The position numbers were made by a program, and so were the translations under genes. Positions 2,703 through 63,171 of a stretch of DNA of 64,000 nucleotides are shown one piece after another. How positions within the stretch are numbered: position 1 is the stretch's first letter; each line of letters opens with the position of its first letter. Under the pieces are notes generated by a model. It saw nothing but the letters and a program-made list of their open reading frames with translations, did not search any database and was not told where the DNA came from. This DNA is from Polytrichum commune (lineage: Eukaryota > Streptophyta > Polytrichopsida > Polytrichales > Polytrichaceae). The stretch spans positions 12,276,001 through 12,340,000 of the forward strand of contig OX485803.1 in the NCBI GenBank assembly GCA_950295325.1, read 5' to 3'.

Positions 2703-4137
2703 TCTATGCATAAGCAAGCATAAATGAAAAGCCTTTATCTTTTCTTGAGGGCTACTTCCTCTTTTGGGGGCATGCTCTATATTGTTCTTGATACATACCC
2801 TTTAGCGTGCCAAAGTTGTTAACTCAAGATGTAACATTCTTAAGCATGTGTTAGGATGTTCTCTTTCTATTCTACTAAAATTCAAGAACAAAATGTTGAC
2901 AATCAACGTTCTTAAATGTGAAGCGTTCTTAGGTTTTTAAAGATTGCATGAAACTTACTCATTTACATTGGAAAGTGTGATTTGTGTTGATATATGGATC
3001 AAGAATGTTGCTGTGTTGTTGTCATGTTCATATATGTCGTGGAAATACTTGTTGATATTCTTTATATGACCACAATAGCTAAGTTTGGTTGTGTGCAAAT
3101 GGAACGTTCTACCATTATGAAGCAACACTTATCCACACCCATACCGGAATATCTAGCATAACAAACAAACCAACCTAAACAACAATGAGTTCATCGAACG
3201 AAAGTAAATACTATAAAACATATCAATGAGTTCTACAGGCCTCCCCGTATCACATTTTTTTATAACCAACAATCAACTCTTCATTGTTACCTCTAAGAAG
3301 GAATATTCAACCCAAAGTGTGGTTGCATGTGTTTTTTGAAGTTACTTGAGAGGTTTTGATCAAGTCTTCATCTTCTAATATGAGTTTCTTCCCACATGTA
3401 GCTATTCAAGCTCCAAATTGTCACTTGGTTGGTGAGAATTTAGTATCAACGTTTCTTTGTGGATTTTGAAGTGCTCAAACATAAAATATTTGGCTTTGTT
3501 ACAAAATTTACTATAAGAGGAAAAATATAAGATTATTGACTTTATAATCTTTGTCATTCTTGACCATATGATAAAACCCATGGTTTTAACCAATCAAAAC
3601 ACAGTCTATTTAAATATGACGATATATATATAGTTATCATCATATATAGTTATAGTTATATAGTTATTAGCATGGTTTAGAAGAAAATGCTTCTAATTTG
3701 GTATTTTAAAATATAACAATAGTTCACAATTGCCTTGATGCTTACCACATAGATGTAGTTTGAAATAAGCGTAACAACTACCTTCGGTATGTTGACTCCA
3801 AATTAGGTCACCAAGTCAGACTTTGTAACACATCGTTGATAGTATGTATATCCCCTCATCCTTTAGGGATTAAGTACATGTATAGTGCGGGATTCAATCA
3901 CATACAATAAAGCCATATTGGGTCCCCTTAACTTAGTTTGTATGTGACTGCAAGATATGAGTGAATTGTCATTACACATGGTGGGCCATATAGTAAGGAG
4001 GCCGGTTCACATGGGATCCCAACATGAAGGCCAAGTCCTAACTTTTGAGCCTCAAGAAACCATTAGAATATGGTTAATTATCATTAAAGTTGGATCTTGA
4101 TTAATTTATGTAAAAATATTTGTATGTCTTGTGTCAA
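2703..4137. other. No gene seen
   Basis: AT-rich DNA. A 63-residue minus-strand frame (3402-3593) has no recognised domain. A run of TATATAGTTAT repeats lies near 3620-3670. Confidence 0.5.
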
Positions 4138-4698
4138 GGGGTTGTTTACATCATGGATCATGAAGTTTTTTGTTGCTCCCCCTGAAACATGTGATTGGTT
4201 GTTGAACTCGTCCCGGGTCAACTTCAGTTTACATCAAGGAAACAATGTAAGAGTGACCATGGAGCTCGAGGTCCCCAAAAGGTCTATTTTCATGCCGACA
4301 TAATTCATTGTCATGATTTAACGGGTTTCGTGGTGAGAGAGGCAAAAGAGGTTTTCATGTTGCGAAAGTCATGGGGACCATGATAGAGAAATGTTGTCTT
4401 TAGTTTTATTTTTATTCTTTCCAAACGTTATTGTAGGAAAGAAGGGAAGAAGTTGGGGAGAAAATAAAACATGAAAAACAAATTCCTAAAAGTACTATTT
4501 TTGGGCATATAATAAAAAATCAACACATCCACTTTTTGATGCATGGTCACTCCTCTTGGTCCACACTTGGTTTACACTTGGTGAGAAGCCCAAGGAATTT
4601 AAAACGTGTGTTTCTCATAATTTTGACAATGGAAGTATGACCATGGAACATGACCATATGACATGGGACAACTTCATGGTCCATGATGTAAATAGCCC
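4138..4698. mobile_element. MITE, TIR GGGGTTGTTTACATCATGG, copy 1
   Basis: The left end GGGGTTGTTTACATCATGGA and the reverse-complemented right end GGGCTATTTACATCATGGAC match over more than 25 bp, both continuing CATGAAGTT. The element is 561 bp and shares its body, including TGATTGGTTGTTGAACTCGT, with the copy at 19270-19846. The 3-bp flanks do not show a clear direct duplication here. Short frames inside are non-coding shadows. Confidence 0.85.
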
Positions 4699-14455: not shown

Positions 14456-14730
14456 AGGTTTTGTAAAGTTTTGGATGTGGTGGCTATCAACACACAACAT
14501 CCTTGAGGGGTTGATCATACCGGCCACTACTGGTACCATTCGTTGGCATCTCCGGTTGTAATAATGTGAAAAGTGGTGGGCCAACATCTATTTCTGAACA
14601 TAATCCCACACAATTTCACGGTTAAAACTGCATAGAAAGTTTGGTGTGATCGGGCCATGAGTGTAAGGTAACTAGAAATATTCATGAATGATCGAATATT
14701 CTAACCACATGTGTGTAAGTAGAGGATGAT

Positions 14731-15092
14731 GGGAGCTAGACAACTCCCAGTTGAAGATAGATGGATTGGAGTTAGACAGCTCCAAATTGACAACATGTGC
14801 ACTAGAGTTAGACAGCTCCGCATTTAGTGCATTGGAATTAGACCATTCCATATTGAGAACATGTGCACATGAGTTAGACAACTCTCGATGAGGTGCACTA
14901 AAGTTAGACTACTCCAAATTTGGAAAGATGAATGTTATTCATTGGAGTTAGACAACTCTCAATGAATAAATAAATCTAGTAAGAATTAGACAGTTCCAAC
15001 TAGAAGAATGGACGGATGAACCAAGTTGGAATTAGACAATTCCAACTAGAAGGAAGGATGGATGAATCTAGTTGGAATTAGACAGTTCGAAC
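14731..15092. repeat. Array of ten short hairpins with a shared AGAC loop
   Basis: AGAC occurs at 14738, 14774, 14810, 14840, 14876, 14906, 14950, 14988, 15034 and 15080, spaced 30-46 bp. Around nearly every one the flanks pair: GAGTT/AACTC, TTGGAGTT/AGCTCCAA, TGGAAT/ATTCCA, and a perfect ten-base stem AGTTGGAATT/AATTCCAACT at 15024-15047. The stems differ between units but pair within each, with G-T wobbles; the unit at 14906 is weakest. Spacing of the first six is a multiple of three, and 12-residue peptide repeats (NLELSNSNP-type) can be read on the minus strand. The last four are out of frame, so structure rather than protein is what is retained. An LTR U3 or enhancer-like array is a possible explanation. 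Confidence 0.8.
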
Positions 15093-15115
15093 TGGAAGAA
15101 TGAGATCGAGTAAAA

Positions 15116-15780
15116 AATGGAAGAAGATTATAGAAGAACCAAAGATAGAAGTTTCGTAACAGAACTAAGAGATAGAGCTATGAATAGAACACTTTAATAT
15201 ATGTAAAAATAAAAAGTAAAAGTAATGCCTTTGGCATAAGAGGAAGCTCAGGGGAGGAGAGGATCTTTTTTGTCTCTCTTCTATGGTTGGGTGGTTGAGC
15301 TTAGACCAAGACTACTTGGTCTACGATTGTAATTTGACGTTACAAGGAAAATAAATTGAGTTCTTCAACTCATCATTTTGATTGATAATTGTTATTTAAA
15401 AAGTTGGTGACAAACATGTGGGAGGTTTGTTACACTGAGTCTCTCCCAATGTGGAGTTGTCTGTTTGTACGTGATTAACTCAAGGGCCCTTCTCACCTAG
15501 CTATATCTTTTGTGGTGTTTGGGCATGGCCACCATTGGCGCCAACAACAACTTCACCGAGGCTACCCTTGGTCCCTCCCCCCCACTGCACTGGTGCCAAC
15601 GCGAGAAACTCTCCCACTCTCAACACTTCCACACCTCCTCCCTACAAGTTGCAGTGACCTCTTCCTCCATGCAAAACACCTTGATTTTTGTGACCCTTTC
15701 AACGTGCCGTGGAATTTTATCTAGTTTATGGAAATTTGTGTCATGGTGGGAGGGAGGAAGCAAGTTGGAGCAAGGGTGGC
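15116..15780. other. No gene seen; possible LTR-like tail
   Basis: After the hairpin array come an AATAAATTGAG word (about 15350) and a TCTCTCCCAATGTGG stretch. These are compatible with an old LTR but no paired copy was found in the window. Confidence 0.35.
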
Positions 15781-19269: not shown

Positions 19270-19846
19270 GGGGTTGTTTACACCATGGACCATAAAGTCG
19301 TCCCAAGGCCCTGTGAAAGTTGTGATTGGTTGTTGAACTCGTCCCGGGACCACTTTGGTTTACATCAAGGAAAAAATGTCGGAGTGACCATGGAGTTTGA
19401 GGTCCCCAAAAGATCTATTTAAAGGTCTACATTATCCACTAACATGGTCCAACGGGTTTTGTGGTGGGAGAGGCAAAAGAGATGCTCTAGTAGGAAAAGA
19501 CAGGGGCTCATGACAGAGAAATGTTGTTATAATAAAATTTTAATGATTTTTTTTTGGGGGAAGAGAAGATGAAGACAAGAGAGTGGTCAAACTTGATTCC
19601 CCCCCCCCCAAAAAAAAACTATCCTTTTTGGGCATATGCTAAAAAAATCAACACATTCATTTTGTGGTGCATGGTCATTCCTCTTGGTCCACATACAATT
19701 TATACCTAGTGAGGGGCCCAAAGAGTTTGTAAATTGATTTTTTCTTGAAAGAAATCAGACCATGGATGTTGGATCATGAAAGTTGGACCATGAAAAAAGG
19801 CCATCTTCCATGGTCCAACTTCATGGTCCATGGTGTAAACCGGCCC
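19270..19846. mobile_element. MITE, TIR GGGGTTGTTTACACCATGG, copy 2
   Basis: Left end GGGGTTGTTTACACCATGGA and reverse-complemented right end GGGCCGGTTTACACCATGGA match, both continuing CCAT-AAGT. The 577-bp body is collinear with 4138-4698. Flanks are TTA (left) and GTA (right), close to a 3-bp Tourist-type duplication. A poly-C/poly-A run (about 19602-19618) lies inside. Confidence 0.85.
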
Positions 19847-22960: not shown

Positions 22961-24560
22961 ATGAATTGAACTGCAAGGATTGTAAAAGAGATTCTTCGAC
23001 GTTGACAAGAATGATAAGCATTGCCAACACAAATGATACGAAGGCGCTAGGATCCTCCAAGCCAGCCATTACTGCAAACAGCTACAAATGAATCACATGA
23101 TTTTTTTCACTTTAAGTCTTAAAGTTTAAGATGTACATGAAACAATATCAAGAAATGCAAAAACAGTAGGTGGCAGAGAATTCACCGGTAGGTAATTTCT
23201 CCAAGATGAGTGAGAGTATGTGAATATCAGGTATGTGATTAGGAAGAGACTGTGGATGGTGAAGCATCGACACCGAGGGAAGGTCACAAAATGAACTTAA
23301 ATTTATGTGCTATGAATGTGTATGGACAGTTTATCATGATCTGTAGTTGGATGGTAGGCCCCTGGTTTAGCTTACAGCGGGCATTGAAAAACCTACAATT
23401 TTTTCTCCTTGTACCCGAAACGATGGTTGCAAGTTGGATGCAAGTACTGGAGGTAATTGGCAACAACTGAATAAACGTGGGAAATTTGAGATTGAGGAAT
23501 CCCAGCCGATGCATGTGTTGGAGGTGAGACATGGTTATGAGCAGCAGAGGGACATTTGTTGCACTGAGGTTAGATTCTGTGCAACCTGATTGCAGACGAT
23601 TCGATGCATTTCGGCAGTGAGGTGGGTTTTTGAAATAACTTCGGGGCTGCTCGGTTTGAGTAGCTGGGATGCATTTGGTTGGGATTCGAGAGGGGATTAA
23701 ACACAGTACGGGAATGGCATTCACCTGTTGCAATTGCTCACCGACACTGCTGTTGTTGCTTTCGAAATACAGCAGAGAGAATTTTTTTTAACCTGCGACA
23801 ATGGATCACGCGTGTTCGATACGGATACTGGTTTAAGGACATGCATGTGCCGGTGTCTGAAGCTTTTATTAGTCGGGCGAGGTGACAGGGCATTGGACTG
23901 GGGAAAAAGAGGAAATAGAAGCCAGATTTGCGGAGGAAGTATCGCATTATTCTGAGGAGGGGCAACGTACCTTTCGGATGCTGGTTGGCAGTATGACATC
24001 GTGCAGGTGTGTGCGCAAATGAAGGGTGAATGCGATTGCCTGTGATTGTCCTGGTGAGCAGTGTTCAAGATTGAAGCCCTCATATGAGTCTCATTTTGAA
24101 GGGCTCTCAAATTTCACAGTTGTTCAGTTGAAGGGCTCATTCAATCTAAGAATATAGAAATGAAATACAAAACTCATAATGAAGTTGTGCATGGATTATA
24201 TAGTACATGTTTCTAGTACAATGTGAAGAATGGAAAATCAACCATCTAACTCCACTTCTTGTAGTGACAATGCCCTACGCTTGTTGGTTCTTGTGGCGGG
24301 CATATTACATCGAGAACTTCAAATGACGTCTTCATTTTCAATTTGGGGTTGCGTTTTGAAAAGTTGTTTTGAGAGAGGTATATTTTGAAGGGCCAAATCA
24401 CTGCTGGTGAGGCTCCTCCATGTGCGTGTGCTGAGCGAGATATCGACAGTCGAGGCCTTGGTGTGTAGATAGAGCTTGACCATGTAAGAAGGTGGGTTAA
24501 TCGGTAAGCTGAGACATGCACATGTGGCATCATCGATAAAGATAAAACGACAACGGCCAA
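22960..24560. other. No gene seen
   Basis: Frames up to 149 residues (minus, 23284-23733) show no recognised domain and composition unlike the two real genes. GAAGGGCTC occurs twice, at about 24098 and 24131. This may be the 5' part of the PIF element whose transposase lies at 21690-22960. Confidence 0.4.
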
Positions 24561-24561
24561 G

Positions 24562-24790
24562 CAATGATCGGGGAGAACCGGCAGTTAGTTACAAATGAAC
24601 TGGTTGAATTTGAGAAATAACCGGTTGAAGTTGGGGACTGTAGGAAAATTACCGATCATTTTAGAGGAATTTATAGAAGAATATACCCCATTTTAATAAA
24701 GGAAAACTGGAGAATGTCAACATGTAACCGGTTGGACTTGCAAACACTAGGATCTCAACTGATTATGCCCAAAAATCTCCCGGATCACTG
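24562..24790 (+). mobile_element. hAT-like MITE, CAATGATCGGGGAG ends, copy 1
   Basis: Starts CAATGATCGGGGAGAACCGG and ends CTCCCGGATCACTG; the reverse complement of the end is CAGTGATCCGGGAG. The interior repeats AACCGGTTGA-type words and ends with CTAGGATCTCAACTGATTAT. Length 229 bp. The 8-bp flanks (CGGCCAAG and CAGCAAGT) agree at only four positions, so the target duplication has decayed or the border is uncertain. Confidence 0.85.
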
Positions 24791-25077: not shown

Positions 25078-25802
25078 TAGCCATACGCTATGTACATAAG
25101 GTTAGAAGTTATACATGTCTCGTTGTGTTGTGTGTGCACTTTCACTTGCACAAAAGAACTTGTTGTGGCTAACTTAACCTACACAAGCACACTCTGAGCA
25201 TTAAGGGTGAGTTTTCATGTAGGCCAGTCGCCTATCATAATTGTGACCTCATGACACTTGGCGTTCAAGTGCACTTACTAATGTAATGTCTTGGCATGAG
25301 CATGTTCAATAGTGTTATGAGGTGCATGCCTTTGGTACACAATGGTCTACAAGTTCACCAAAGTGTACACAAATGACACTTGCTATTAGTATGCTCAAAA
25401 ATATCTTCCTCCTGCATATTAGAATGCAAACACATGGCACTTGCCATTAGTACACTCAAAAATATGTTTCCCTTGCATACTAAAAATGCAAGACTACTCT
25501 CTAACGCACAATATCCCAGTGTGCTACTCTAAATGTCACAAGGTAGATATTTTTTCACTTCAAGAAGTTGCTTACGTTGACAAATGGAATCATGTTGACA
25601 ATTAGCAGGCATGACACTTTGAGACCTCTAAGCATCTAGTTTAGGCCCTCCGCAAATAGTGTACGTGACACTAAATACCATAAACATTGTACTAAGTTGC
25701 ATACCAGTGCTTTATGGAACCGAAACTCCCCTGTGCATTATGCTACTCACATTTCGAATATCATAAGCCTGTGACTATTCATTGTAGAATAGTACCCACC
25801 GG

Positions 25803-26650: not shown

Positions 26651-27189
26651 CACAGTATAAATAATCAACATCAATAATGGTTTCAAAGAATCTACTCATG
26701 GACCTCGATTTTGTAACACCAATCAACTGCATCGTTTTTAGTATTTAGTGTCACATACATTGTTTGCGAAGGGCCTAAACTAGATGCCTAGAGGTCTCAA
26801 AGTGTCATGCCCGCTAATTGCCGATATGATTCCATTCGTCAACAAAAGCAACTTCTTGAAGTGAAAAAATATATTTATTATGACATTTAGAGTAGGACAT
26901 TGGGATACGTTAGATGATAGTCTTGCATTTTAGCATGCAAGGGGAAGATATTTTTGAGCGTACTAATGGCAAGTGTCATGTCTTTACTTTTTAGTATGCA
27001 AGAGGAAGATATTCTTCATCGTACCAATGGCAATTCGTGTACATATCTTAGTCAACTTCCCGATCATTATGTGACATAGGCATGCACCTCGTAACACTAT
27101 TGAACGTACCCATGCCAAGATATCAGTAAGCACACTTGAACACCAAGTGTCATGTGTTCACACTTACGCTAAAATTGTTGATCATGAAC

Positions 27190-47884: not shown

Positions 47885-48550
47885 TACAGATGAACTAGTT
47901 GAGTTTGAGAAATAACTGGTTCAAATTCAAGACTTTAGGAAAATTACGGATTGATCTAGAGGAATTTACAGAATATTCCCTCCATTTAATGAAGAAAAAA
48001 CTGAAAGATGTCAACATGTAACCCAGTTTATACTGGAAACAGTAGGATCTCGACCAACTATGCCCCAAAATCTCCCTGGACCCAGGCCAAATTGAAGACC
48101 ATAGGTAGGGCAAGTACCGATCGATTTAGAGGGTTCACGAAATATTCCACTAATTTAATCAAGAAAAACCAAAAGATGTCAACATGTAACCAGTTGATAT
48201 TGGAAACAATGATCGAGGAGAACCAGCAGTTAGTTACAGATGAACCGGTTGAGTTTGAGAAATAACCACCGGTTGAGGTTGAAGACTGCATGAGAATTAC
48301 CGATCATTTTAGAGGAATCTATAGAATATACCCCAATTTAATAAAGGAAAAACCGAACAATGTCAACATGTAACTGGTTGGACTTGCAAACACTAGGATC
48401 TCAACCGATTATGAATGCCCAAAACTCTCCCCGATCACTGATTGGAAACACTAGGATCTCGATCGATTATGCCCAAAAATCTCCCCGATTATTGATTGGA
48501 AACGCTAGGATCTCGATCGATGATGCTCAAAAATCTCCGTGGACACAGTC
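47885..48550 (+). mobile_element. Cluster of hAT-like MITE copies, including a self-insertion
   Basis: Several partial copies of the 24562 family lie head to tail. One ends in CCCCAAAATCTCCCTGG (about 48063-48079). A second runs 48110-48206 and resumes at 48441. A third, 3'-end unit lies at 48495-48545. The intact copy at 48207-48440 is inserted in this older copy. The 54-bp stretch 48441-48494 resembles 48495 onward, so either a tandem duplication or further nesting occurred. Confidence 0.85.
48207..48440 (+). mobile_element. hAT-like MITE, complete copy with 8-bp duplication ATTGGAAA
   Basis: Starts CAATGATCGAGGAGAACC and ends CTCTCCCCGATCACTG. ATTGGAAA is exactly repeated at 48199-48206 and 48441-48448. 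It is 234 bp. An 8-bp duplication plus CARTG ends fits the hAT superfamily (YARNG-type TIR). Confidence 0.92.
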
Positions 48551-61131: not shown

Positions 61132-62803
61132 AAAATTGTAGTTCTCATCCATGTTAGCATTATATGATCCTAGGGAGCGATTAAATGGACCCAGTCAACA
61201 TGAATGTTGTGACCTTAAAGGTCACATTTTTCCAATAAGAAAGTTGGTCCATTGAGAAAGGATACATAGAGAAGTAAAAGGAAATAGAAGTTTGGAAATG
61301 ACAGTCAATTGCCGGGAAGAGTGATTGTCAGAGGTTGATAATCAAGGTGAACTTTTGTTGTTATTTCCAAAATGGAATTCTATCATATGATTATGAGATG
61401 GAAGTTTAAGCTGACTTCTATAATCCAATAATAGTCTTGCATGGCCATAATTGGACAAACCTTGACCAAGGGGAAACACTTTGGATTTGTGTCTCTCATA
61501 CCCTAGCCACACTGGAGGGTCTAGCCGCCCCTAGCTAGCCCAACTGGTTCAGGGCACCACTGCAGTTGGGGGCAGCTAGCTAGAGCAGTTTGGGACCTTG
61601 TGGGACCAGCGGGGAGCCCCTAGCTGCGGGGGTGCCCCAAATGTTGGATGGGGGGGCAGTTGGACCCCCCAATGTGGCTCAGGTATCAAGCCACATGACA
61701 ATTTGAACAATTATCAATGGTAAGTTGTGAAGGTTTAATAATGTACAAAGTCCAAAAGATCATAATTCTTGTGTCTTATGTGCAGTTGTTATTGTATTAC
61801 ATATGTGAAATGTAAGGAACATGACATAAGGTAGATGAGGTTAATGTGGACACCTTCAACTTTGTGAAATCATCCAGCCGATAGATTTGGGTATTAGAAG
61901 CTTGAGCATGATAGCAATTGTGAATTGGGACCCAAGAATTTGAAATTGTTGAAATCGGAGTCAAGGAAGGTGTTGATCTAGGCTCTGGAATCAAAGACTC
62001 TTTGCTTCCCAATTTAGTGTTATGAGGGGGAACTCTTTTATCGTTCAATGTTGTGTAAGCGGACAATATCATTATCAAATTCAACATGGGTCATTTGCCA
62101 ATGAAAACCAAGTTCAATACCAATATTCATTGTGTTGTGTCTCTAAACTGGTCACATGTAAGATAAAATAAAACCAAATTAACTTTTCATTATAGGATAC
62201 CCACAATACAAGTTGGTCGGCACCTCACAACCACATGCCGCATCCTAATTTGCCCACCTCGCGCACACAAATCAAGCATGTCACAACTCGATGAATAACG
62301 CTCTTAATTATGGAGGATGGTGGGCATAGTTTGACTTTTGCAAAGGTGACTAACCCAGATATCATGAAGGCGGTGGCTAAATCACCATGTACTACTCACC
62401 CATTGAATTAGAGTGACTATACCTCCGATAGGGAGCCAAAAATAGGTGTCCTATTAAGGAAGCTAACCGCATTAGCCTCAGTTACCTTACATAATAAGTT
62501 GTCGTTGGTGAGGTAGTTGTTGATGGTGGATGAAATTTAACTAGTTCAAGTCACGAAGGAGCAACAAATTGAGTTGTGCTCCTTTTGTTGCTCCTTCACA
62601 TAGTTGAAGCTTGCAATAGATCTTGGGTGGGTCGAACGAGCATTCCAATCACGCTGATCCCACTAACGTTAGCGTTTCTTCTCTACAACAGATCATAGGG
62701 ATGAATACTGGATCATAGTGTTGGTGTTTGATTGTGGAAATCGAGACGTTCTGGAGTTGGAACAAATTGGTTTGCATCTCAAGGAAGGAAGGGGGTTTGG
62801 GAG
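61132..62803. other. No gene seen; short GC-rich segment at 61500-61680
   Basis: Repeated words CTAGCTAG, GGGGGCAG and GGACCCCCC sit in a GC-rich segment. The 96-residue minus frame (61797-62087) has no recognised domain. Confidence 0.5.
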
Positions 62804-63025
62804 CTATGATCGGGGAGAACCGGCGGTTAGTTATGGATGAACCGGTTGAGTTTGAGAAATAACCAGTTGAAGTTTGAGACTGCAGGAAAATTACCGATCA
62901 TTTTAGAGGAATTTATAGAAGATACCCCAATTTAATAAAGGAAAACCGGAAGATGTAACCGGTTGGACTTGCAAACACTAGGATCTCAACCGGTTATGAA
63001 TGCCCAAAAACCTCCCCGATCACTG
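62804..63025 (+). mobile_element. hAT-like MITE, copy with TTTGGGAG/GTTGGGAG flanks
   Basis: Starts CTATGATCGGGGAGAACCGG and ends CCTCCCCGATCACTG; 222 bp. The 8-bp flanks (62796-62803 and 63026-63033) differ at one base. Confidence 0.9.
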
Positions 63026-63171
63026 GTTGGGAGGTTGTCAATGGAAGGTGAACGAAGGGTGCATCGGTGCTTCTGGTTGTTTGGTTTACATACAATCATT
63101 CTCCAGTACTTTGATGAATGTATTGATTTTATGCTCAACCCCAGGTCCAAGATGACCCTAAACTACCGGGT

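Follow-up and report, generated by a model that had tools for sequence, protein, structure and literature searches.

Why should one short stretch of the Polytrichum commune genome carry the tetranucleotide AGAC ten times, each time between flanks that can pair with one another? The stretch lies in a 64,000-nucleotide piece of DNA (assembly GCA_950295325.1, contig OX485803.1, positions 12,276,001 to 12,340,000 of the forward strand), referred to here as the window. A first-pass annotation, made from the letters alone, had described ten hairpins with compensating stem changes and had proposed that folding, or two-fold symmetric protein binding, has been kept, with an LTR regulatory array, a structured RNA and a palindrome-prone repeat as candidate explanations.

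Layout and pairing of the ten units

All ten AGAC units that had been described at 30-46 bp intervals were located within the block (Table 1), starting at positions 14738, 14774, 14810, 14840, 14876, 14906, 14950, 14988, 15034 and 15080, and their orientation is identical in 10/10. Measured between AGACs, the unit-to-unit steps are 36, 36, 30, 36, 30, 44, 38, 46 and 46 bp; within units 1-6 every step is a multiple of three, and after unit 6 none is, as had been reported. The core of the unit, GGARTT-AGAC-ARYTCC, is near-invariant across the array. A search of both strands of the window with the 16-mer GGARTTAGACARYTCC, allowing up to three mismatches, returned 12 matches, 10 of them inside the array, compared to a mean of 2.8 for shuffled sequences, which reached 12 in 0 of 100 cases. 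Folding of the array block gave z = -5.75 on the + strand and z = -6.17 on the - strand, with 0 of 100 shuffles equal on each strand, and at least five of the six inner pairs were present in 9 of the 10 array units compared to 5 of the 167 remaining + strand AGACs of the window. By these three measures the flanks do pair well above chance, as had been claimed; unit 6 has 4 of 8 pairs. When single units of three arrays were folded, the means were -7.7, -9.8 and -10.6 kcal/mol, compared to about -3.3 for single-base shuffles. Stems in the arrays are mostly about 4 to 14 pairs long.

The array is made up of a 66-bp duplication (units 2-5), a 46-bp repeat (units 8-10) and single units. Between units 3 and 5, which belong to the two halves of the 66-bp duplication, the sixth and seventh pairs differ on both sides, and in unit 5 these two positions have no standard pair. 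CpG is depleted in the array (4 in 362 bp, observed/expected 0.30). A peptide repeat, against which as sole explanation the first-pass annotation had already argued, was ruled out by stop codons in each of the three + frames of the block, and no listed open reading frame of at least 120 amino acids overlaps it. A search of window positions 14600-15500 against Rfam returned no family at its gathering score, the one match scoring 22.3 bits against 83 (E = 0.34).

Table 1. Coordinates, in window positions, of the array and of the element that carries it
Feature	Position	Strand	Evidence
AGAC near-palindrome array, ten units, U3 of LTR	14731..15092	+	motif matches and pairing counts
66-bp tandem duplication, units 2-3 and 4-5	14765..14920	+	2.4 copies, 76% matches
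46-bp tandem repeat, units 8-10	14983..15102	+	2.6 copies, 85% matches
Solo LTR, 773 bp, Ty3/gypsy chromovirus, short-LTR form, TGTAAGG...GTTACA	14662..15434	+	BLAST limits against genome copies; end letters
5' target-site duplication ATGAG	14657..14661		sequence letters
3' target-site duplication CTGAG, 4/5 match	15435..15439		sequence letters
TATA-like box TATATGTA, slightly more than 100 bp downstream of array	15198..15205	+	by eye
AATAAA, possible polyadenylation signal	15350..15355	+	by eye

The array lies in the U3 of a chromovirus LTR

The proposed check of whether the block sits in LTRs, by BLAST against genome copies, yielded the LTR limits given in Table 1. Against the two short-form copies, L006 and L008, homology starts near 14658 and stops near 15439. 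The start TGTAAGG also borders internal sequence in L006, and L008 is a single LTR with a perfect duplication; in fact L002-L005, L007 and L008 are all single LTRs, and the 5-bp target duplications are perfect in all six. The TG...CA ends and the 5-bp target duplication (4/5 in the window) are those of a Ty3/gypsy chromovirus LTR. The window LTR itself carries no pol, and the class of the element was read from a relative, L009, whose two LTRs lie 6.7 kb apart. They are 99.6% alike along 774 bp, at which point the match to the second LTR stops. In L009 the primer site TGGTATCAGAGC begins two bases past the LTR end TTACA, and we take it to fit plant initiator tRNA-Met. Open frames of L009 that run in the direction of the array match zinc knuckle, protease, RT, RNase H, integrase and chromodomain; the Pfam matches were RVT_1, RT_RNaseH, Integrase_H2C2, rve (under its cutoff) and Chromo at residues 925-970. 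L009 thus has both the adjoining primer site and the order of RT, RNase H and integrase, with a chromodomain, that mark a chromovirus. The LTR occurs in two forms: that of the window is short, whereas the other reaches about 960 bp and starts with a 78-bp tandem repeat.

From the copy-based limits, the TG...CA ends, the target duplication and the L009 domains on the array strand, we identify the window feature as an old solo LTR of a Ty3/gypsy chromovirus, with the array within its U3. The earlier suggestion of an LTR U3 regulatory array therefore holds as to place, with the array ahead of the TATA-like box and on the strand of the L009 pol. A search for an empty site, in which the window flanks were joined with one copy of the duplication, found no uninterrupted site among the best 40 of 1178 candidates, so by this route the insertion is unproven; the right flank matched itself only, the left flank matched a dispersed repeat, and the furthest match reached about 14 bases past the join. 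ATGAG also forms the terminal letters of this neighbouring repeat.

Several further repeats were observed. The dispersed repeat, about 158 bp at 14504-14661, has inverted ends recognized by eye (GGGGTTGATCATACC...GGTGTGATCGGGCC, then CATGAG) and occurs both single and in tandem in the genome; the solo LTR is placed exactly at its end. In L009, positions 340-503 hold the 78-bp tandem repeat that is lacking in the short form, which resembles a duplicated LTR beginning, and an AT-rich self-similar stretch (2240-2680) lies between two gag-side open frames. Elsewhere in the window, an element-like stretch at 19276-19840 has 33-bp inverted ends, 85% complementary and 499 bp apart; parts of it recur in diverged form at 4137-4397 and 4498-4565. 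Three copies, roughly 86% alike, of a repeat some 240 bp long are present (24559-24790, 48200-48445 and 62797-63030), with weaker ones besides. The stretches 25238-25685 and 26734-27166, each about 450 bp long, are inverted relative to each other, 82% alike and 1 kb apart.

Copies of the array across the genome

When a 380-bp block was compared with its own 408-Mb assembly, the best 40 of 648 candidates were the block itself and 39 copies at 90-92% identity, the match covering all or nearly all of the block. A pattern of two consecutive units gave 148 matches in the genome and 0 for the reversed control, and three TTAGACA motifs at array spacing gave 413 matches (overlaps included) compared to 60 for the control. 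The array is thus present in many LTRs, and the doubt that the first-pass annotation had attached to a block without further copies falls away. Among the matches listed, at least three additional spacer types carry the core. One of these types has many copies that are identical in the listed letters; between its paired arrays lie long open frames of pol, and its RT is about 90% identical to that of L009. The copies studied are the best 40 scored for each DNA query together with the first places of pattern searches that required the core; since they were selected by similarity or by the motif itself, the sample is non-random and biased to intact cores. Two of them, L073 and L074 (C4:45036057 and C4:44986114), are near-identical LTRs that face opposite ways at a distance of 50 kb and may stem from a segmental inverted duplication.

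Unit number differs among copies, with added 46-bp steps in L025, L037 and L050. The well-kept arrays L002, L075 and L079 hold 10, 9 and 10 units, and the units of L002 and L079, the two of these three that were folded, fold strongly. The symmetry of the units is imperfect: summed over units 2-10 of 76 copies, C occupies the left second base in 10 cells and G the right second base in 209, unit 1 being the exception with a left C in 73 of 76 copies. In units 2-10 the left TT beside AGAC is near-fixed and the right side is variable, which suggests that TTAGAC may be the key part of each site, with the outer arms helping. At eight loci beside more distant RTs (L095-L102; 68-71% identical in five, 58-59% in three), no AGAC array was found in the 3.2 kb downstream of the RT, a span that may miss part of the 3' LTR. 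In a general hairpin scan the densest stretches of these loci had no AGAC-type array, and several of the loci had hairpins above shuffles, L102 the most (13 compared to 3.4). The absence of the array at these eight loci indicates that it is dispensable for chromoviruses in general.

Do both arms change together?

The right arms were reassigned at random among the units of one array and the standard pairs were counted; the p values of this arm swap, like those of the pooled-unit counts below, ignore the kinship of units (units 8-10, for example, are one duplicated block). In the window, 65 of 80 pairs were observed compared to 61.2 after swapping when eight pairs per unit were read (p = 0.019), 87 of 120 compared to 78.9 for twelve pairs including the outer arms (p = 0.003), and 51 of 60 compared to 50.1 for six pairs (p = 0.36). 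With eight pairs, swapping lost 5 of 72 pairs in L002 (p = 0.0006), 4 of 64 in L075 (p = 0.011) and 5 of 71 in L079 (p = 0.012); with twelve pairs, p was 0.001, 0.003 and <0.0002, respectively. Most pairs survive the swap because the core is nearly constant. Joint arm variation is therefore weak, small in extent and mostly confined to the outer arms, and the bulk of the pairing comes from the near-constant palindromic core. Of the compensating stem changes that had been proposed, what stands is a small excess over arm swapping with eight and twelve pairs, and the six inner pairs give none. When whole units were compared in 54 aligned copies (54 of 73 arrays were kept), the commonest 20-base form of each unit was shared by 18 to 34 of them, and the remaining listed forms are mostly a few bases off it.

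Paired changes are clear at two places, the third pair and the outer stem of the last unit. The third pair (G-C or A-T) is Watson-Crick in 86% of the 321 distinct units collected at 98 loci, compared to 48% expected, and pairs 7, 8, 9 and 12 of these units are likewise above all shuffles; among 35 cluster representatives the third pair is at 63% compared to 41% (p = 0.004), and no other pair stands out (next best p = 0.076). The last unit could be read in 56 cases, while 52 loci yielded none. Its ninth pair is G-C, G-T (4 copies) or A-T, with A-C once, and its eleventh pair runs from T-G or T-A to C-G. All six outer positions are paired in 46 of the 56, the other ten having at least one unpaired position. 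The outer stem is CCAATT/AATTGG in 35 of 56, mostly one young subfamily; others have CTAGTT/AACTGG (4), CCAGTT/AACTGG (2) and CTAGTT/AATTAG (1).

Pairing and constraint on internal and terminal branches

Terminal branches, which mostly represent decay after insertion, served as the neutral reference for internal branches. Of 100 matched loci 76 were kept (24 were dropped for coverage), and removal of L073, L074, L082 and L094, which are misaligned or deep, left 72 copies, for which one tree was built from the full LTR and one from the LTR outside the array, LTR columns being counted from 14663, so that the first base of the LTR is left out. In a larger set, 40 more loci were fetched and 106 of 139 matched loci were kept for array-only trees, again without these four and with internal branches <0.0001 dropped. 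Trees of such short LTRs are uncertain, and the sample is one genome.

With six pairs and 72 copies, kept and broken pairs stood at 37:18 on internal and 83:109 on terminal branches of the full tree (odds ratio 2.7, p = 0.002), and at 28:9 and 92:120 on the tree outside the array (4.1, p = 0.0003). A control in which the partner was slid by +1 gave odds ratios of 3.4 and 2.9 on the two trees. Omission of the right second base reduced the ratios to 1.9 and 2.5 (p = 0.15 and 0.08), and the third to sixth pair alone gave 2.3 and 3.2 (p = 0.056 and 0.036; slid +1, 2.7 and 1.5). In 106 copies the ratios were 1.5 and 2.0 (p = 0.12 and 0.03; slid +1, 1.6 and 2.3). When all 76 copies and pairs 1-8 were counted on the full tree, single changes from a standard pair only, the same lean appeared as in the 72, with 57 kept and 36 broken on internal and 96 and 144 on terminal branches. 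The excess of kept pairs thus rests largely on one right-arm column. Since the slid control equals the signal and the signal shrinks in 106 copies, we do not claim selection for folding; the proposal that folding has been kept is not established by this comparison, in which the terminal branches themselves broke more pairs than they kept. Independent arm changes, which the first-pass annotation had named as speaking against its view, do occur in the dead copies, but dead copies cannot speak for live lineages.

Constraint on the sequence of the units is a separate matter. On the full tree the ratio of internal to terminal changes was 0.24 in the loop and 0.29 in the inner stem, compared to 0.41 and 0.47 in spacer and outer stem. 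Loop and inner stem together differed from outer stem and spacer by column permutation on both trees of the 72 copies (p = 0.007 and 0.009); the loop against the spacer alone gave p = 0.050 and 0.071, the inner stem against the spacer p = 0.060 and 0.18, and for the inner stem compared to the remainder of the LTR the two trees gave p = 0.63 and 0.0006. Relative to terminal branches, internal branches thus carry fewer changes in loop and inner stem than in spacer and outer stem, and a difference from the remaining LTR is clear on one tree only.

A putative enhancer of symmetric sites

The array is probably a U3 cis-regulatory array of near-palindromic sites in a chromovirus, of which the window holds one old solo copy, and we put the probability of this reading at about 0.62. 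Two-fold symmetric protein binding to the units fits best among the candidate explanations, and the ten units are most likely protein-binding sites through which the element was once activated. An enhancer built of such sites would fit the near-constant core, the symmetry and the ten copies ahead of a TATA-like box, as well as a degree of constraint over the lifetime of the element. A host DNA-binding protein would recognize each unit as a two-fold symmetric site, and in the active element the units would jointly act as an enhancer. The array may have grown through tandem duplication of the 66-bp and 46-bp blocks. For as long as the element was active, the units would have been maintained as binding sites, with free decay setting in after insertion, and the few paired arm changes would reflect upkeep of symmetry in each unit.

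Alternatively, one palindromic unit may have been multiplied by slippage during replication or reverse transcription and carried along without a function of its own. The variable unit number in L025, L037 and L050, the independent decay of the arms on terminal branches and the survival of most pairing under arm swapping would all be expected of such passive growth. We nevertheless regard it as unlikely, because the core is common to several LTR types with differing spacers, because changes on internal branches fell less often in loop and inner stem than in outer stem and spacer, and because L002, L075 and L079 have retained 10, 9 and 10 units, with strong folding in L002 and L079.

The units could also act in RNA, where the 3' U3 of the genomic RNA would fold into a row of hairpins, all with the constant apex UUAGAC, to be read by Gag or by a host RNA-binding protein. 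Single-unit folding energies, the third pair (above expectation in the 321 units and in the 35 representatives), pairs 7, 8, 9 and 12 (in the 321 units, though not in the representatives), the twelve-pair arm swap in the window and in all three well-kept arrays, and the pair series and outer pairing of the last unit are in line with such a row. Changes to G-U rather than A-C offer a test of the RNA strand, which was run with and without the four excluded loci: in the first set the two kinds stood at 32:17 and 25:11 on internal and 68:62 and 75:67 on terminal branches. This excess over terminal branches gave p = 0.13 and 0.09 and fell to 21:14 and 14:9 with the second pair omitted, and in the larger set the counts were 34:26 and 28:17 internally and 108:90 and 121:106 terminally. 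The RNA-strand signal is thus suggestive in the first set and weaker in the second. Given further that the arm-swap and pooled-unit tests are blind to kinship, that a +1 slide equalled the pair-keeping ratio, which was lower in 106 copies, and that both strands are alike in fold z-score, we consider an RNA role very unlikely.

A slim chance is left to the array as a target of host silencing, in which the transcribed palindromes would fold and feed small RNA and DNA methylation, a course reported for the LTR palindromes of maize Sireviruses, while the element keeps the array as a needed promoter. Small-RNA hotspots on palindrome-rich LTR regions are described in the available portions of PMC10760457 and PMC5311732, the units fold strongly, and the CpG ratio of 0.30 is what decay of methylated sites would give; the stems, however, mostly fall under the 21-nt runs used in published palindrome work, as far as that work was accessible. 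Finally, it is a long shot that both uses are combined, with enhancer sites in the 5' LTR and, in the 3' LTR, an RNA row of about ten hairpins serving as a multivalent signal for packaging or export. If so, Gag or a host factor would recognize several UUAGAC apices together, and the trace would be the A/G freedom of the right arm opposite a fixed left T, together with the G-C, G-T, A-T series of the last unit.

Comparison with known systems

For the preferred reading, a U3 array of protein-binding sites, two known arrangements are relevant. As in tobacco Tnt1, short boxes are repeated in the U3; Tnt1 is a copia element, and the likeness drawn here is one of arrangement. Its BII boxes are reportedly the tandem repeats of its U3, ahead of the TATA box. 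Tandem repeats in U3 are described as frequent in retroviruses and present in Tnt1 (PMC3601003, in part), and defence-induced factors reportedly bind the BII boxes (PMC3316501, in part). Closer in form are the LTRs of Sireviruses (Ty1/copia), for which the sections available of PMC2829016 describe palindromic RM boxes, a dyad motif of 10-20 bp in at least 8 copies upstream of the TATA box, with CpG islands and a CGG-CCG core in all but one (Tnd-1) of 13 listed Sireviruses. The chromovirus array likewise has at least eight dyad-symmetric copies, here ten, before a TATA-like box (by eye). Unlike the RM region, however, it has a core (GGARTT-AGAC-ARYTCC) without CGG-CCG and with AGAC at its centre, lacks a CpG island (observed/expected 0.30), and begins 69 bp into the LTR rather than at the 200-400 bp given for Sireviruses in the material accessible; moreover, the L009 pol has its integrase after RT and RNase H and carries a chromodomain. 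Since pol type, core and CpG island all disagree, the array resembles Sirevirus palindrome regions in position and form, yet is not a Sirevirus array.

Among plant chromoviruses (CRM, Tekay, Reina, Galadriel), the accessible part of PMC3605345 describes a tRNA-Met primer site within 3 bases of the LTR, also for beet chromoviruses, a chromodomain at the integrase end and a 5-bp target duplication, all of which are shared by the element described here. The same main text, as far as available, has no mention of tandem or palindromic repeats and one of a subrepeat, and the accessible portion of PMC10760457 reports no obvious peak of palindromic structure for maize Ty3 elements. A literature search over titles and abstract openings, mostly without subscription full texts, found no AGAC palindrome array in a chromovirus. 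Palindrome clusters in the LTRs of copia Sireviruses have been linked, in the work available in part, to promoter function and small-RNA silencing. A chromovirus family with a palindrome array of its own is a case separate from these, and its many copies of graded age provide a natural series for asking what palindrome arrays are kept for.
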